Source: Desulfoferula mesophila (GTDB lineage Bacteria > Desulfobacterota > Desulfarculia > Desulfarculales > Desulfarculaceae). Taken from it: a stretch of DNA of 64,000 bases. Shown in pieces: positions 48,139-55,077 of this stretch. Each line of letters starts with the position of its first letter. Position 1 is the first letter of the stretch. Location: contig NZ_AP028679.1 in NCBI RefSeq assembly GCF_037076455.1, positions 3,549,501-3,613,500 on the forward strand, given 5' to 3'. Made by a program: the position numbers and the translations under genes. Under the pieces are notes generated by a model. It saw only the letters and a program-made list of their open reading frames with translations, was not told the origin of the DNA and ran no database searches.

Positions 48139-49191
48139 CTAGGCCCGCTGGTTGGCCGCCAGTTCGGCTTGCAGCACGCTCATATCCGGGGGCAAAAACT
48201 CCAAAGGCTGCTTGCTCTGCACGATGCGCCGGGCGCGCTCGGCCACCAGGGCCGGGTCCAGTTCCCCGGCCATGACCAGGTCGGTGAGGCGCTCCAAGGC
48301 GGCCAGGGCCAGCTCCGGGCGGTGGCACATCAGCAGCACGTCGCTGCCCGCCAGATAGGCCTCCACCGCCGCCTCCTCTGGGGCCATCTGCCCCACCACC
48401 GCGCCCATCTCCAGGTCGTCGCTCATGATCAGGCCGTCGTAGCCCAACTCGCCGCGCAGCAGATCCTGGATCACCGCGGGCGACAGCGAGGCCGGGCGAT
48501 CCGGGTCCAGGGCGGCGTACACCGCGTGGCAGATCATCACCCCGGCCACCCCGGCCCGGGCCGCGGCCCGGAAGGGGGGTAGCTCCACCGCCTCCAGCTC
48601 GGCGCGGGAAAGGTTGACGGTGGGGCGCTCCTTGTGGGTGTCGGCGGTGGTGCGCCCCAGGCCGGGGAAATGCTTGGCGCAGGCCAGGCACCCCGCCTCT
48701 TGCATGCCCCGGATAAAAGCCGCGCCCAACCGGCCCACCAGCGCCGGGTCCGCGCCCAGGCTGCGCCGGGCCATGATGCCGCCCTCCATCGCGTGCACGT
48801 CCATGACCGGAGCCAGGTCCCAGTTGAAACCGGCGGCCAGGGCCTCGCGCCCCAGCTTGGCCCCGTGGGCCATGAGGGCCTCATCATCGGCCCCGCCCAG
48901 CTCGGCCAGGTCCGGGCCATCGGTGAAAGGCGCGTGCAGACGGGCCACGCTGCCGCCCTCCTGGTCCACCATGACCCACAGGGGCGGACGCTCGGCGTTG
49001 GCCGCCGCCCGGCGCAGGTCGTAGTTGAGCTGCCAAACCTGGGCCGGAGACTCCACGTTGCGGGCGAAAAGGATCACCCCGCCCAGGCCCTGTTCGGCCG
49101 CCAGGGCCAGCTCATCCGGGCCCGCCTCAAGCCCCGGCAGCCCCACCACCATGGACTGGGCCAGGCTGTTGCGCACCGCGCGTCGGTTCAT
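48139..49191 (-). CDS. nagZ: Beta-N-acetylglucosaminidase NagZ (GH3)
   Basis: Cleaves GlcNAc from anhydroMurNAc-peptides during recycling. 350 residues from ATG 49191, overlapping the lipoprotein stop. No signal peptide, as expected for cytoplasmic NagZ. KHFPGLGRT is the family KHFPGHG-type motif with the catalytic His region following (TADTHKE), and the nucleophile Asp is in IMSDDLEMGAV. WVMVDQEGG and FARNVES complete the GH3 pattern. The open frame continues upstream into the lipoprotein gene, but that part is not family-like. Confidence 0.95.
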   Translation of the reverse strand: MNRRAVRNSLAQSMVVGLPGLEAGPDELALAAEQGLGGVILFARNVESPAQVWQLNYDLRRAAANAERPPLWVMVDQEGGSVARLHAPFTDGPDLAELGGADDEALMAHGAKLGREALAAGFNWDLAPVMDVHAMEGGIMARRSLGADPALVGRLGAAFIRGMQEAGCLACAKHFPGLGRTTADTHKERPTVNLSRAELEAVELPPFRAAARAGVAGVMICHAVYAALDPDRPASLSPAVIQDLLRGELGYDGLIMSDDLEMGAVVGQMAPEEAAVEAYLAGSDVLLMCHRPELALAALERLTDLVMAGELDPALVAERARRIVQSKQPLEFLPPDMSVLQAELAANQRA

Positions 49192-50027
49192 GGCTTGACC
49201 CCCTCGCCTTCCGGCGGCTTTTTCGCCTCTTTGGTCTCCTGGCCATCCTTGGCCGGAGCGGCTTTTCGCGGGCCCCAGTTGCTGTCTTGCTTGAGAATCG
49301 GATCGCCGGAGGCGTTGCGCACGTCGCCCTTGAACTCGACCCTGAACACCAAATTGTGCCGCACCTTGGCGGTGGCCAGCAGGGCCAGGGGTATGCGCCA
49401 GGTAACCTTTCCCTGGTCGGCGATGACCTGGGGGGTGACCAGGCGCCCGCCGATGTTGAGCTTCCACACGTCGATGATCTTGCCGGGCACCTGCCAGCCC
49501 ACGGTGATGAAGCGCCCGGCCATGCCGGCGGTGAGCAGCTGGTTGGCCCGGGCGGTGTCCGGGTCCAGGGGCTGGGCCGGAGCGGGGGTTTGGTCCTTGA
49601 AGTGGTCCCGCTCGGTGCCCAAGACCTGGTCACGGTCCGGGTGATCGCCCTCCAGGCTGCGCAGCCAGCCGGTCAGGCGGTAGGTGTCCACGCGCATCCC
49701 CAGCAGGCCCTTGTCTATGCGCTCCAGGGAGAAGCGCATGCGCGCGGCGTGCACTTTGCTCAACTCGGAGAACTCCGCCGTCTGCTCGAACTCCACCAGA
49801 CCGCCCAGCTCCTGGCGCTGCACGGGGGTCTCGGGCGAGACAATCTCCTTGAATTCGCTCTGTTGGTATTGGCCGATCAAGGGGGCGGGCAACTCCACAA
49901 AGGCCCGCAGGGTGCCCGAGCCGTCGGGCTTGAGGACTAGGTTGAGCCCGCAGTCGAAGCAGCCGGGCAAAAGCAGGCACAGGCCCAAGAGGGCCACGAG
50001 GGGGAGATGTCTGGAGTAAAGGCGCAA
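49188..50027 (-). CDS. Lipoprotein of unknown function, LppM-like at best
   Basis: 279 residues from TTG 50027, chosen because AGGAGG lies 7 bases upstream and a signal sequence follows at once. Lipobox LLPGC gives lipid attachment at Cys 22 or so (GLCLLLPGC|FDCG). The mature part starts LNLVLKPDGSGTLRAFVEL, a pattern reminiscent of LppM/DUF3153 lipid-binding domains, and ends with a Lys/Glu/Pro-rich tail. No catalytic motif seen. Its stop overlaps nagZ, so the two are coupled; a role in the periplasmic side of recycling is inference. Confidence 0.75.
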   Translation of the reverse strand: MRLYSRHLPLVALLGLCLLLPGCFDCGLNLVLKPDGSGTLRAFVELPAPLIGQYQQSEFKEIVSPETPVQRQELGGLVEFEQTAEFSELSKVHAARMRFSLERIDKGLLGMRVDTYRLTGWLRSLEGDHPDRDQVLGTERDHFKDQTPAPAQPLDPDTARANQLLTAGMAGRFITVGWQVPGKIIDVWKLNIGGRLVTPQVIADQGKVTWRIPLALLATAKVRHNLVFRVEFKGDVRNASGDPILKQDSNWGPRKAAPAKDGQETKEAKKPPEGEGVKP

Positions 50028-50092
50028 GGCTCTGCCTCCTGCTGGTGTATCTTGAGACTTACCCGGACGACCCCTCCCGGTCAAGGCCTGGT

Positions 50093-50121
50093 TTGAGGCG
50101 GGAAGGCCGCTGTGCTAATCT
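50093..50121 (+). promoter_or_regulatory. Candidate promoter of the murU-amgK-der run
   Basis: TTGAGG (50093-50098), a 17-base spacer and TAATCT (50116-50121) with an extended TG at 50113-50114. It lies in the 124-base divergent gap with the lipoprotein gene; on the other strand, TTGACC (50084-50079) is a possible -35 without a good -10. Confidence 0.45.
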
Positions 50122-50151
50122 TCAGCCATCGTTAACCCGTTGGAGTAGGCC

Positions 50152-51096
50152 ATGCGGGCCATGATTCTCGCCGCCGGTTTCGGCACCAGGCTGCGCCCCC
50201 TCACCGACAAGCGACCCAAGTGCCTGATGCCGGTGATGAACCGGCCCTTGTTGGGGCTGTGGCTGGGCCGCCTGGCTTCTTGGGGCGTCCAGCGGGCGGT
50301 GGTGAACACCCACTACCTGGCCGACCAGGTGCACCACTACCTGCGGGAACAACCGCCGGAGGCGATGGAGGTGGCCATCAGCCACGAGCCCGAGATATTG
50401 GGCACCGGCGGCGGTTTGGTGGCCGCGCGGGGTCTCTTGGGGCCCGAGCCCTTTTTGCTGGTCAATTCCGATGTCTTGGCCACGGCCCCGGCGCCGGAGC
50501 TCATGCAGACACTCAACGACGAGGGCGCGGTGGCGGTGCTGGGTCTGGTGGACGAGCCCCGCTTCAACACCGTGGCCCTGGACCAGGCGGGCCGCATCCT
50601 GGGCTTCCAGGGCCAGGAGGGGCTCTCTCCCGCCCGCTGGCTCACCTACAGCGGCCTGGCCGCCCTGAGCCCGCGCCTGCTGGACTATCTGCCCTCCTCG
50701 GGCCGCTCCTCCCTGGTGGAGGGCCTGCGGGCGGCCATCGCCGGGGGTGAAAAGGTTTTGGGCCGGCCCTTGGAAGGGTTCTGGGACGACCTGGGCACCC
50801 CGGAACGACTTATAATGCTGCACCGCCTCTTGGCTCACAACCCTCCCCCGGGCCTCAGGGGCCTCTCCCCGGAGGGGCCGGTGCTGCTGGGACCGGGGGC
50901 CCGCCTGGAAAACGGAGTTCAGGTCAAGGGTTTCGCGGTGTTGGGCGCCGGCGCGGTGGCCGAGGCGGGGTCGTTTTTGCACGAAACGGTGCTGTTGCCC
51001 GGCGCCCGGGTGAGCGCCGGGGCCAGGGTGGAGCGGGCGGTGCTGGGAGACGGATTCGTGGCCAGGGGACGCATACAAGGCGGGGCCCATGCCTGA
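50152..51096 (+). CDS. murU: MurU-like sugar-1-phosphate nucleotidyltransferase
   Basis: 314 residues. Nucleotidyltransferase signature MILAAGFGTRLRPLTDKRPKCLMPV, then LGTGGGLVAA, LVNSDVLA and DDLGTPERL. A C-terminal ~75 residues form left-handed beta-helix hexapeptide turns (VLLGPGARLENGVQVKG), an addition not found in the short Pseudomonas MurU. The MurU call (UDP transfer to MurNAc-1-P) rests on its overlap with an AmgK-like kinase and the neighbouring recycling genes; glucose- or mannose-1-P transferase activity is the alternative. Confidence 0.7.
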   Translation: MRAMILAAGFGTRLRPLTDKRPKCLMPVMNRPLLGLWLGRLASWGVQRAVVNTHYLADQVHHYLREQPPEAMEVAISHEPEILGTGGGLVAARGLLGPEPFLLVNSDVLATAPAPELMQTLNDEGAVAVLGLVDEPRFNTVALDQAGRILGFQGQEGLSPARWLTYSGLAALSPRLLDYLPSSGRSSLVEGLRAAIAGGEKVLGRPLEGFWDDLGTPERLIMLHRLLAHNPPPGLRGLSPEGPVLLGPGARLENGVQVKGFAVLGAGAVAEAGSFLHETVLLPGARVSAGARVERAVLGDGFVARGRIQGGAHA

Positions 51097-52150
51097 GCGG
51101 GATTTGACGGCGGAGCTGGCGGCCTGGGCCCAGGAGGCCTGGCCCGGAGAGCGGCCAGCCAATATAGAGGTAGAGCCGCTTTTCGCCGACGGCAGCCTGC
51201 GCTCCTTCGTGCGCCTGCGGGGCGGCGTGCGCTCGCTGGTGGCCATGGCCAACCCGGTGAACCAGGCGGAAAACCGCTCCTGGGAATACCTGGCCCACCA
51301 TCTGGGCCGCCTGGGCCTGCCCGTGGCGCGGGTCTTGGCGGCGGACCAGGCAAGCGGGCGCTTCCTCATGGAAGACCTGGGCCAGGGCTCGCTCATGGAG
51401 GCGGTGGCCGCGGCGGGCAAGGACCAGGAGGTAGTGGCCGAGCTCTACCGCCCAGTGCTGGCCATGCTGGCCCGCCTGCTGACCCCCCAGGCCATGGGAC
51501 TGAACGTGGAGCTGTGCTACGACGGCCCGGAACTGACCCCCCGGGTGTTGCGCGAGCAGGAGGCGAACTACTTCCTGCGTGAGCTGGTGCTGGGCGCGGC
51601 GGGCTGGCAGCCCGAAGAGCTGCCCCCGGAGCTGGAGGATGAGCTGGAGGTGCTTTGCCGCCTGGCCGGAGAGGCCCGGCCCCGGGCCCTGGTGCACCGC
51701 GATTTCCAGAGCCGCAACGTAGTATATTATCGGGGGCGCTACGGTCTGGTGGATTTTCAGGGGGCGCGCCTGGGCCCGGCCCAGTATGATTTGGCCTCCC
51801 TGCTGCACGATCCCTATGTGCAACTTCCCTGGAGCCTGCGCCAGCGGCTCTTGGAGGAGTTCTTGGCCCTGGCCGCCGCGCAAGGGGCGTTCAATCAGGG
51901 TGAATTCCAGGCCGGTTGGGCTCCGGTGAGCGCCAGCCGCCTGATGCAGGCCCTGGGGGCCTTCGCCTTTCTCACCCGCAAGCGCAACCGCCCCCAGTTC
52001 GCGCCTTCGGCGGCCCCGGCCCTGGCCAGCCTGGGCCGGGTCATGCAAGACCCGACCATGGCCGGTTTCGTGGGCCTGCGCCAGGTGGTGGAGCAGACCC
52101 CGGAGCGCCTGGGGCCGCACAGTTTTGATTTTTTAGGAGAGCTGCACTAA
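51089..52150 (+). CDS. amgK: AmgK-like anomeric MurNAc/GlcNAc kinase (APH family)
   Basis: 353 residues, overlapping murU by 8 bases. Aminoglycoside-phosphotransferase fold: FADGSLRSFVRL at the start, RFLMEDLGQGSL hinge, catalytic loop VHRDFQSRNVV and the metal-binding LVDFQGARLGPAQYDLASLLHD, which closely follows the AmgK pattern (IDFQDAxxGPxxYDLxSLL) known from Pseudomonas. AmgK phosphorylates MurNAc at C1, and MurU then makes UDP-MurNAc, bypassing de novo synthesis. Followed immediately by der (TAATG). Confidence 0.75.
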   Translation: MPERDLTAELAAWAQEAWPGERPANIEVEPLFADGSLRSFVRLRGGVRSLVAMANPVNQAENRSWEYLAHHLGRLGLPVARVLAADQASGRFLMEDLGQGSLMEAVAAAGKDQEVVAELYRPVLAMLARLLTPQAMGLNVELCYDGPELTPRVLREQEANYFLRELVLGAAGWQPEELPPELEDELEVLCRLAGEARPRALVHRDFQSRNVVYYRGRYGLVDFQGARLGPAQYDLASLLHDPYVQLPWSLRQRLLEEFLALAAAQGAFNQGEFQAGWAPVSASRLMQALGAFAFLTRKRNRPQFAPSAAPALASLGRVMQDPTMAGFVGLRQVVEQTPERLGPHSFDFLGELH

Positions 52151-53496
52151 TGACGCCCATAGTGGCCATAGTGGGCCGGCCCAACGTGGGCAAGTCCACC
52201 CTGTTCAACCGCCTGACCCGCACCCGCCAGGCCCTGGTGGACGACCTGCCGGGCGTGACCCGGGACCGTCTCTACGGCCGGGCCAAGATCGAGGGCCGGG
52301 AGGTGACCCTGGTGGACACCGGCGGCTTCGATCCCCCGGCGGATCAGGCCTTTGCCGCCGAGGTGCACGCCCAGATCCAGATGGCCCTGGACGAGGCCGA
52401 CGTCATCTTGTGCCTGGCCGACGGCCGGGCGGGCCTCACCCCCCAGGACCAGGAGGTGGCTCGCCACCTGCGGCGCACCGCGACCAAGCCGGTGGTGTGG
52501 GCGGTGAACAAGGTGGACGGCCCCAACCTGGAAGACGCGGCCGCCGAGTTCTATTCCCTGGGGGTGGAGCACCTGTTCTTCATCAGCGCGGCCCATGCCC
52601 GGGGAGTGCCCGACCTGCTGGAGGCCCTGGCCGAGCTACTGCCCCCCGAGGGCGAGGACGAGGCGGCCCAGGACCTGGGCGAGGTGCGCCTGGCCCTTTT
52701 GGGGCGGCCCAACGTGGGCAAGTCCAGCCTCATAAACCGCCTCACCGGCCAGGAACGGGTGGTGGTCTCCGACGTGCCGGGCACCACCCGCGACGCGGTG
52801 GACACCCCCCTGGAGGTGGATGGCAAGCGCTATTTGCTCATCGACACCGCGGGCATCCGCCGCCAGGGCCGGGTGAACCGGGGCCTGGAAAAGGCCGGGG
52901 TGTTCCGCAGCCTTCGGGCGGTGGAGCGGGCCCACGTGGGCGCGGTACTGGTGGACGCCAGCGAGGGCATCACCGACCAGGACCTGCGCCTGTCCGGGCA
53001 CGTCCTGGACAGCCACCGGGCCCTGATCATGGTGGTGAACAAGTGGGACCTGTTGGCCGGCGACGAGTACCGCCAAAAGATCCTGCTCCATGAGCTGGAA
53101 ATGGCCCGGCGCTTCGCCCCCTGGACCCCCTTGCTGTTCATGAGCGCCAAGACCGGCCAGGGGGTGAAAAAGCTTTTGCCCACCGTGGACCAGCTTTTCG
53201 CGGAATACAACCAGCGCCTCAACACCGGCCAGCTCAACCAGGCCTTGAGCCAGATAACCGAGCACCATCCCCCGCCCCTGGTAAAGAACAAGCGGCTCAA
53301 GATTTACTACGGCTCCCAGGTGGCCAGCCGCCCGCCCACCGTGGTGCTCAAGGTCAACGACCCCAGCCGGGTGCATTTTTCCTACCGCCGCTACCTTACC
53401 AACGAGCTGCGCCGGGCCCTGGGGCTGACCATCGCGCCCCTGCGCCTGATTTTCCGGGGCAAGCAAGAGGGCAAGGGCCGCAAGCGCCGGCCTTGA
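52150..53496 (+). CDS. der: Ribosome-assembly GTPase Der (EngA)
   Basis: Tandem-GTPase factor for 50S assembly. 448 residues. First G domain: GRPNVGKSTL, VDTGGF, NKVD. Second: GRPNVGKSSL, DTAGIRRQGRV, NKWDL. The KH-like C-terminal domain (about 360-448) ends in a basic tail (KQEGKGRKRR). ATG overlaps the amgK stop by one base. Confidence 0.98.
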   Translation: MTPIVAIVGRPNVGKSTLFNRLTRTRQALVDDLPGVTRDRLYGRAKIEGREVTLVDTGGFDPPADQAFAAEVHAQIQMALDEADVILCLADGRAGLTPQDQEVARHLRRTATKPVVWAVNKVDGPNLEDAAAEFYSLGVEHLFFISAAHARGVPDLLEALAELLPPEGEDEAAQDLGEVRLALLGRPNVGKSSLINRLTGQERVVVSDVPGTTRDAVDTPLEVDGKRYLLIDTAGIRRQGRVNRGLEKAGVFRSLRAVERAHVGAVLVDASEGITDQDLRLSGHVLDSHRALIMVVNKWDLLAGDEYRQKILLHELEMARRFAPWTPLLFMSAKTGQGVKKLLPTVDQLFAEYNQRLNTGQLNQALSQITEHHPPPLVKNKRLKIYYGSQVASRPPTVVLKVNDPSRVHFSYRRYLTNELRRALGLTIAPLRLIFRGKQEGKGRKRRP

Positions 53497-53563: not shown

Positions 53564-54142
53564 ATGCGAAACATAGCCGAAGCCGCCCTGAAACAGGCCA
53601 TCGAGGTGCACCAGGAGTTTTTGGGCTCGGGTCTGGATCAGGCCGTGGCCGCCGCCCAGCTCATCTCCCGCTGTTTGGCCGGGGGCGGCAAGCTCATGTC
53701 CATGGGCAATGGCGGCTCGGCCGCCGACGCCCAACACCTGGCCGCCGAGTTGGTCAACCGCTTCATGATGGAGCGTCCCGGTCTGCCCGCCCTGGCCCTG
53801 ACCACCGACACCAGCGTGCTCACCTCGGTGGCCAACGACTACGACTATAAAGAGATATTCTCCAAGCAGATAAAAGCCCTGGCCAGCGAGGGCGACGTGG
53901 TGCTGGGCCTGTCCACCTCCGGGCGCAGCCCCAACGTGCTGGCCGGGCTGGGCGCGGCCCGTCAACGGGGCCTGGCCACGGTGGGGCTCACCGGACGCCA
54001 CGGCGAGGCCATGGAGCCCCTGTGCGACGTGCTGATACAGGTGCCCAGCGAGCTGACCCCGCGCATCCAGGAAATTCACGCCTTTTGCGTCCACCTGATC
54101 TGCGAGCTAGTGGACCTCACCCTATTCGGGCGTAGCCAATGA
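53564..54142 (+). CDS. gmhA: Sedoheptulose 7-phosphate isomerase
   Basis: First step of ADP- or GDP-heptose synthesis for LPS core. 192 residues, SIS fold. Family marks: MGNGGSAADAQHLAAELVNRF, NDYDYKEIFSKQ, GLSTSGRSPNVL and RIQEIHAFCVHLICELV with the catalytic Glu/His. The fit to GmhA is better than to MurQ etherase, which is about 300 residues. Its TGA overlaps the next gene. Confidence 0.93.
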   Translation: MRNIAEAALKQAIEVHQEFLGSGLDQAVAAAQLISRCLAGGGKLMSMGNGGSAADAQHLAAELVNRFMMERPGLPALALTTDTSVLTSVANDYDYKEIFSKQIKALASEGDVVLGLSTSGRSPNVLAGLGAARQRGLATVGLTGRHGEAMEPLCDVLIQVPSELTPRIQEIHAFCVHLICELVDLTLFGRSQ

Positions 54143-55077
54143 GTCAAAAGCCCATAGACCTCAGCAAGTTAAAGCTGTCGGACCTGGATCTGCGGCCCTC
54201 CAAGGTGGCCGCCGCCATGCTGGGCAAGCCCTGGCAGCCGGGCGGAAGCTTCCGGCAGTTCATCGAATCCCTGCCCCAGGTGTTGTCCGCCGACGACCTC
54301 AGGGCCGCGGCCGGGGCCATCGTGGCCGCCCGCCGGGCCGGGCGCCCGGTGATGCTGGGCATGGGCGCCCACGTCATCAAGGTGGGCCTGAGCCCCCTGA
54401 TCATCGACGCCATGGAGCAGGGCATCCTCACCGGCCTGGCCTTCAACGGGGCCGGAGTGATCCACGACACCGAGATGGCCCTGGCCGGGCGCACCAGCGA
54501 GGACGTGGCCGAGGCCCTGGCCGACGGCAGCTTCGGCACTGCCCGCCAGACCGGGGAGTTCATCAACGCCGCGGTGGCCGCCGACCCCGAGGCCGGCCTG
54601 GGCCGGGCCGTGGGCCGGGCCATCCTGGAGGCCGCCCCCGCCTGCGTGCAGGTGTCGCTGTTGGCCGCGGCGGCCCGCCTGGGCCTGCCGGCCACGGTGC
54701 ACGTGTCCATCGGGGCGGACATCATCCACATGCATCCCAGCTTTGACGGCGCGGCCACCGGCCGGGCCAGCCACGTGGACTTCCGCCTGTTCACAGCCCA
54801 GGTGGGCGAACTCAAGGGCGGGGTGTACGTCAACCTGGGTTCGGCGGTGGTGTTGCCCGAGGTGTTTTTGAAGGCGCTGAGCGCGGCGCGCAACCTGGGC
54901 CACGAGGCCAAGGACTTCACCACGGTGAACATGGACATGCTGCGCCACTACCGCCCCATGACCAACGTGGTCACCCGCCCGGTGCTCACCGGGGGGCGGG
55001 GTATCAACATCACCGGCCACCACGAAATCAACCTGCCCCTCCTGCTGGCCATGGTCAAGGAGGCGTTGGCCGTCTGA
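54139..55077 (+). CDS. Conserved uncharacterised protein coupled to gmhA
   Basis: 312 residues, start overlapping the gmhA stop (ATGA). Soluble, alpha/beta in appearance, with strongly patterned segments: VMLGMGAHVIKVGLSPLI, LAFNGAGVIHDTEMALAG, SIGADIIHMHPSFDG, VNLGSAVVLPEVFLKAL, MLRHYRPMTNVVTRP and NITGHHEINLPLL. The order of these Gly- and His-rich blocks is faintly like deoxyhypusine-synthase NAD-fold enzymes, but the active-site Lys region is not evident and no eIF5A-like target exists in bacteria. Coupling with gmhA suggests sugar metabolism. Function unknown. Confidence 0.75.
   Translation: MSQKPIDLSKLKLSDLDLRPSKVAAAMLGKPWQPGGSFRQFIESLPQVLSADDLRAAAGAIVAARRAGRPVMLGMGAHVIKVGLSPLIIDAMEQGILTGLAFNGAGVIHDTEMALAGRTSEDVAEALADGSFGTARQTGEFINAAVAADPEAGLGRAVGRAILEAAPACVQVSLLAAAARLGLPATVHVSIGADIIHMHPSFDGAATGRASHVDFRLFTAQVGELKGGVYVNLGSAVVLPEVFLKALSAARNLGHEAKDFTTVNMDMLRHYRPMTNVVTRPVLTGGRGINITGHHEINLPLLLAMVKEALAV

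Follow-up and report, generated by a model that had tools for sequence, protein, structure and literature searches.

We propose that the 312-residue protein encoded directly after gmhA in Desulfoferula mesophila is a redox-neutral, hydride-shuttling epimerase with the deoxyhypusine synthase (DHS)/ornithine-cyclodeaminase fold, which would carry out the C6 epimerisation step in ADP-heptose synthesis where HldD is absent (probability about 55%). Computation gave the gene, its conservation, a predicted fold, linkage to gmhA and hldE, a fusion to an HldE-like domain and a partial exclusion of HldD; judged by distribution, linkage, fusion and fold, the protein is most likely a non-orthologous HldD substitute. 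It is a member of the GSU2086 family, which is already known to NCBIfam (NF052581) by a model that carries a name but no function. The function proposed here did not turn up in the PMC open-subset papers searched.

The gene lies in the window, the whole 64,000-nucleotide stretch of contig NZ_AP028679.1 that we analysed, with these features in window coordinates:

52150 to 53496, plus strand: der GTPase gene, upstream neighbour (NCBIfam); the der-gmhA pair is also kept in genome G146
53564 to 54142, plus strand: gmhA-like gene, D-sedoheptulose 7-phosphate isomerase, 192 aa, SIS domain (Pfam, NCBIfam)
54139 to 54142, plus strand: four bases (ATGA) in which the gmhA stop codon overlaps the ATG of the 312-aa gene, suggestive of translational coupling
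54139 to 55077, plus strand: GSU2086-family protein (NF052581), 312 aa, proposed heptose epimerase, DHS/ornithine-cyclodeaminase fold (NCBIfam match, predicted fold)
54370 to 54381, plus strand: HxxK block, H78 and K81 invariant in 67/67 alignment rows
54463 to 54474, plus strand: HDxE motif, H109, D110 and E112 invariant in 67/67 rows, in register with HDIE of ornithine cyclodeaminases
54712 to 54738, plus strand: GADIIHMHP block, residues 192-200, G192, D194 and H197 invariant (alignment)
55015 to 55026, plus strand: GHHE block, residues 293-296, G293, H295 and E296 invariant (alignment)

As first annotated, the ORF is intact and overlaps gmhA: it encodes 312 aa free of internal stops, and its ATG shares four bases with the gmhA stop. 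The gmhA-like ORF reaches 222.6 bits against PRK13936 (cut-off 276) and 191.4 bits against TIGR00441 (cut-off 209.45), both under the cut-off, with the DiaA model behind them at 148.1 bits. Gene order in the window runs from a MurU-kind nucleotidyltransferase and an AmgK-like kinase through der, gmhA and the 312-aa gene to hemC, a cobA/hemD fusion and a UvrD/PcrA-type helicase. Across the 4.48-Mb genome, the gene has a single full-length DNA match (seven others span 27-62 bases), and a profile search found one GSU2086-family match. At 48139-52150 of the window, a NagZ-like beta-N-acetylhexosaminidase gene on the minus strand (213.7 bits, cut-off 207) lies near the MurU-like nucleotidyltransferase (150.2 bits, cut-off 250) and AmgK-like kinase (69.1 bits, cut-off 500) genes, a possible cell-wall recycling group.

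The window protein matches NF052581 over residues 5-304 with 414.4 bits against a curated cut-off of 250, and this was its only NCBIfam match at E <= 1, with none to DHS, TIGR00300 or TIGR02197. No Pfam model matched at E <= 1 either, so by sequence the protein was rejected as a direct member of the DHS, ornithine cyclodeaminase or HldD families. Seventy-one related loci were found in other genomes, which sets the gene far from a chance ORF; the closest are in a Desulfarculaceae bacterium (L059, 95%) and a Proteobacteria bacterium (L009, 93%). Phages gave no match to the family. Some genomes carry two places over the family cut-off (G042, G053, G083, G090, G258, G263, G279, G294 and G296), and in several of them one place scores lower.

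Conservation was read from a 67-row alignment of the window protein with 66 of the 71 loci, leaving out one with stops (L072) and four partial loci. Five histidines (H78, H109, H188, H197 and H295) are invariant in 67/67 rows, as are K81, K245, D110, E112, D194, E241, R251, R280 and E296. 'His-rich', the initial annotation's description, was an overstatement (10 His in 312 residues). Of the three blocks that it had singled out as invariant-looking, at residues 104, 193 and 292, the latter two are indeed strongly conserved (0.90 and 0.92, against an alignment mean of 0.66; only 5/301 and 1/302 stretches of the same length reach these values). The block at 104 is unexceptional (0.76, a value reached by 87/299 such stretches).

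The AlphaFold model of the window protein (pLDDT 92.2, pTM 0.90), used as a Foldseek query, retrieved human DHS (1dhs) first (E 4.1e-8, prob 1.00, query TM 0.66), with LOR/SDH 3c2q and ArgZ 6juy also in the list. VIA-align, in which Z differences below 1 are ties, returned AgrE (Z 21.6, 3.1 A over 219 residues), archaeal DHS (21.1), LOR/SDH 3c2q (20.6) and human DHS (20.0). Profile-profile comparison with hhalign agreed, over about residues 31-191 in each case, for ornithine cyclodeaminase (E 1.7e-6, prob 90) and DHS (E 1.1e-5, prob 82); the faint DHS-like pattern first noticed in the bare sequence was thus borne out by both predicted structure and profile. Searching the PDB with the single sequence gave matches at chance level only, and the 67-row profile matched AgrE/ArgZ, LOR/SDH and DHS chains weakly (E 0.026 to 0.82), values that alone are not significant and were outranked by an unrelated phage protein. 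The NF052581 model picks up TIGR00300 proteins at about 1e-9 to 1e-10 and also matches, under its cut-off, in three archaeal control genomes. Among divergent members, the one at L159:8821-9786 passes PF21570, the ArgZ-like C-terminal domain (30.0 against a cut-off of 27), and the one in L146 stays under it (23.5). Structure matches, hhalign and the NF052581/PF21570 cross-matches thus place the GSU2086 family, as modelled, in the DHS/ornithine-cyclodeaminase superfamily.

Within that superfamily, the family resembles ornithine cyclodeaminases (TIGR00300, and the ArgZ-AgrE C-terminal domain PF21570) in predicted fold and in the HDxE motif, which is present in 67/67 rows and in register with HDIE in 3/3 ornithine cyclodeaminases. 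However, the window protein aligns to the C-terminal part only of TIGR00300, has no match to that family's model and sits with heptose genes. With DHS and homospermidine synthase (PF01916) it shares a similar predicted fold and weak homology, but neither a DHS model match nor WGK, the catalytic-lysine motif of DHS: WGK occurs in 0/67 rows and is invariant in the four PF01916-type proteins compared. An enzyme that acts on polyamines or modifies lysine, like DHS or homospermidine synthase, would account for the common fold and the weak homology; we nevertheless regard this as very improbable, given the missing WGK, the heptose linkage and fusion of the GSU2086 family described below, and the genome's own homospermidine-type PF01916 protein (NF001980, 517.8 bits, cut-off 450; C1:4389224-4390120, L123). 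With that protein present, a DHS fold in itself is nothing foreign to this genome.

To place the family in a pathway, we relied on gene neighbourhood, counted from locus scans and genome coordinates, Louvain clustering of neighbour ORFs being too coarse in GC-rich DNA. In the window's phylum, the gene is over the family cut-off in 94/148 genomes; 77 of these 94 have its start no more than 1.6 kb from gmhA, and 89 have a gmhA match anywhere. Around the 71 loci from other genomes, gmhA was found within 3 kb in 17, hldE in 6 and either in 22, counts that are lower bounds since many loci are short. The linkage to gmhA that had been expected of relatives therefore holds well inside the phylum and is often not seen outside it (17/71 loci within 3 kb, many short), so that a lack of linkage, which the initial annotation had named as counting against its reading, was found in part.

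The second heptose gene appears beside the family repeatedly: hldE or its adenylyltransferase domain adjoins the gene in L028, L032, L051, L056, L058, L079, L120 and L142-L144, and in L142-L144 gmhA, the GSU2086-family gene and the HldE adenylyltransferase domain lie close together. In L146 (genome G040), a GSU2086-family domain (362.1 bits) is fused to an rfaE_dom_II-like domain (97.3 bits, cut-off 181.5); of the long frames in 20 stretches checked for fusions, no other carries a second domain recognised from heptose synthesis. On each of two plasmids, the family gene is grouped with genes for a GmhA-like SIS protein and an HldE-like kinase, one of these cassettes also having an adenylyltransferase domain. 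That of Solidesulfovibrio carbinolicus plasmid pDCAR1 (L159, 7282-10363) encodes an adenylyltransferase-kinase fusion with its domain order reversed relative to HldE, a GSU2086-family protein and a GmhA-like SIS protein, and appears to be a second, divergent heptose cassette; nonulosonate-type genes (pseF and the N-acetylneuraminate synthase family) adjoin it. That of Chloroflexota bacterium plasmid plas-ZRK (L160, 7993-11423), perhaps a heptose-type sugar catabolic cassette, holds HAD hydrolase, GSU2086-family, HldE-kinase-like and GmhA-like genes, and adjoins a sugar ABC transporter, Gfo/Idh/MocA oxidoreductases and deoC. No adenylyltransferase or other nucleotidyltransferase was recognised in the five genes scanned there, so a sugar-phosphate substrate fits that cassette better. 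Geobacter sulfurreducens transposon sequencing on electrodes, as given in PMC5585712, lists log2 values for hldE (-3.1), GSU2086 (-3.2) and gmhA (-3.7); these effects may be polar.

The window's genome itself encodes heptose use. One cluster outside the window (L119) holds lpxK, heptosyltransferases I and II and HldE kinase, all over their cut-offs, and a GmhB-like gene (NF006506, 156.8 bits, cut-off 178), and the genome has no HldD at E <= 1e-50. Among the heptosyltransferase genes lies a gene for an SDR of the epimerase family (L119:10322-11281), the chief rival for the HldD step. HldD is an SDR enzyme. This or another SDR might replace it and leave the 312-aa protein with some other role beside gmhA. 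The L119 SDR suits such a replacement by its place in a cluster with lpxK and the heptosyltransferase, GmhB-like and HldE kinase genes, and by a match of 110.6 bits to TIGR02197, although by that model's cut-off (274.6) it is not HldD. It scores higher, under each cut-off, against LegB (152 bits), GalE (151.1), dTDP-glucose dehydratase (143.1) and TviC (141.1), and the same stretch contains a UDP-glucose-dehydrogenase-type gene, which makes UDP-uronate epimerisation a straightforward alternative for this SDR. Replacement by an SDR would also leave the 312-aa family's avoidance of HldD in two phyla unexplained, and we consider it improbable.

That avoidance was measured in 148 genomes of the window's phylum, with thresholds of E <= 1e-40 for HldE kinase, 1e-25 for GmhA and GmhB, and 1e-50 for HldD. 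HldE kinase was found in 135 genomes, GmhA in 124, GmhB in 119 and HldD in 31 (31/31 over the model cut-off), a count from which divergent HldDs would escape. The gene and HldD occurred together in 8 genomes, the gene alone in 86, HldD alone in 23 and neither in 31 (one-sided Fisher P = 1.7e-6); among the 135 genomes with HldE kinase, the corresponding figures were 6, 78, 23 and 28. Counted in the same order by genus, the split was 7/65/16/21 (P = 9.4e-5), and by family 8/37/7/12 (P = 0.095). The Nitrospirae phylum, to which the genome of L020 belongs, gave both in 1 of 118 genomes, gene only in 73, HldD only in 23 and neither in 21 (P = 2e-11). However, the HldDs there (20/24 compared) fall into few sequence groups and thus represent a small effective number of events; together with the family-level result, this means that per-genome P values overstate the exclusion. 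Shared ancestry remains an alternative source of the pattern at the family-level P of 0.095. Fifty genomes with the gene, derived from the loci, had HldD over cut-off in one, and eight more matched at 140-150 bits, under the cut-off.

The other pathway enzymes show no such trade-off: GmhA is present in 89/94 genomes with the gene versus 35/54 without, GmhB in 80/94 versus 39/54 and HldE kinase in 84/94 versus 51/54. These counts led us to reject replacement of GmhB, since genomes with the gene have GmhB no less often than those lacking it. Two of the eight genomes with both gene and HldD (G040 and G102) hold only a divergent form of the family (45% and 42% identity over the aligned part), away from gmhA. 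Six genomes of the window's own family were sampled; five have the gene but lack HldD, and the sixth (G146) is reversed: it has HldD (400.5 bits), lacks the gene and retains the der-gmhA pair (53% and 59% identity). This genome is 92% complete, and no remnant of the gene was found in the 552 bases after gmhA.

The 8/148 genomes with both genes and the 28/135 HldE-kinase genomes with neither weigh against the proposed substitution and imply a pathway that runs without either enzyme, a third enzyme, or gaps in genomes; the latter group may be D,D-heptose users, incomplete genomes or holders of a third epimerase. They also bear on a different step in the same pathway. Acting before HldE, the family could epimerise or isomerise the phosphate of a heptose or of sedoheptulose to give another heptose, and its hosts would use D-glycero-D-manno-heptose or a different heptose and hence have no HldD. 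The genomes with neither epimerase fit this, as do the closer linkage of the gene to gmhA than to hldE and the Chloroflexota plasmid cassette, with its GmhA-like, HldE-kinase-like and HAD genes and no nucleotidyltransferase recognised among the five genes scanned. Against it, the exclusion of HldD reads most simply as replacement of HldD's own step, the fused relative in L146 joins the family domain to an adenylyltransferase-like domain, and heptosyltransferases I and II over their cut-offs suggest ordinary ADP-heptose use in the window's genome. We therefore hold an upstream step to be unlikely.

Replacement of HldD at C6, the reading we prefer, raises the matter of a cofactor. NCBI titles TIGR00300 'ornithine cyclodeaminase, nickel-pincer nucleotide-dependent'; the title of AgrE entry 6lrg names a complex with ornithine and NAD+, and a search of the PMC open subset returned no paper joining the nickel-pincer nucleotide with ornithine cyclodeaminase. 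LarC, a maker of that nucleotide, was found in 85/94 gene-positive versus 39/54 gene-negative genomes of the window's phylum, and in 65/65 versus 29/39 of those at least 95% complete; the nine gene-positive genomes without LarC are 67-94% complete. Per genome in the Nitrospirae phylum, LarC was found in 68/74 gene-positive versus 8/44 gene-negative genomes and in 2/24 HldD-positive ones. G146, of the window's own family, has no LarC match. Tests at taxon level weakened the association in the window's phylum (genus-level P = 0.015, family-level P = 0.34), and LarA could account for part of it. TIGR00300-type matches, as far as NF052581 detects them, occur in only three gene-positive genomes (G026, G051 and G087), so the wide presence of LarC in this phylum does not seem to be due to ornithine cyclodeaminase. 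No larB or larC lies within 3 kb of the gene in the 71 loci, nor in 30 further loci covering about 1.5 kb on each side; in G035, larC, gmhA and the GSU2086-family gene lie within about 8.5 kb.

LarA is described in PMC12611868 as epimerising a carbinol carbon of alpha-hydroxy acids by hydride transfer, with a catalytic His. The GSU2086 family co-occurs with LarC and its proposed hydride-transfer epimerisation is alike, whereas LarA substrates are alpha-hydroxy acids; that LarA is not among the best 50 rows of either structure search (Foldseek, VIA-align) proves nothing. Co-occurrence with LarC thus makes the nickel-pincer nucleotide possible instead of NAD. The initial annotation's picture of an NAD-fold enzyme re-used in heptose metabolism stands, by computation, in its fold and pathway, and is amended in that DHS is no nearer than the ornithine cyclodeaminases and that the cofactor might be the nickel-pincer nucleotide. 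A bolder version, which we put forward only tentatively, is that the family comprises nickel-pincer-nucleotide-dependent sugar epimerases, among the predicted 'non-LarA' users of the cofactor, that took the place of HldD in much of two phyla and made outer-membrane heptose nickel-dependent. A 2024 mBio paper (PMC11796402) predicts 'non-LarA-like' nickel-pincer proteins from genomes with larB, larE and larC and without larA; if the bolder version is true, the GSU2086 family would be a concrete candidate for these proteins.

We infer the epimerase activity, the carbon acted on, the substrate, the cofactor and the mechanism from the results above. The enzyme would convert D-glycero- to L-glycero-D-manno-heptose at C6 in bacteria without HldD, acting at the level of ADP-heptose or of a heptose phosphate. 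A bound nicotinamide-type cofactor (NAD+ or the nickel-pincer nucleotide) would abstract a hydride at the carbinol carbon, generating a ketone, and then return the hydride to the ketone's other face, with the invariant His, Asp, Glu and Lys residues serving as acids and bases. DHS, homospermidine synthase and ornithine cyclodeaminase all remove a hydride and then give it back, and an intramolecular epimerase such as HldD requires the same remove-and-return chemistry. Since the two groups have this chemistry in common, oxidation at C6 followed by reduction from the opposite face is the most economical proposal. The proposed step is that of HldD (TIGR02197), with which the family tends towards mutual exclusion; the window protein has no match to the HldD model at E <= 1, so HldD-like work is possible and membership is not.

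If this is right, a missing step of a core cell-envelope pathway would be filled in a large part of two phyla, the gene being present in 94/148 sampled genomes of the window's phylum and 74/118 of the Nitrospirae phylum. It would also assign a role to a family for which NCBI has just a name, and would provide a case of a DHS-type fold working on a sugar.
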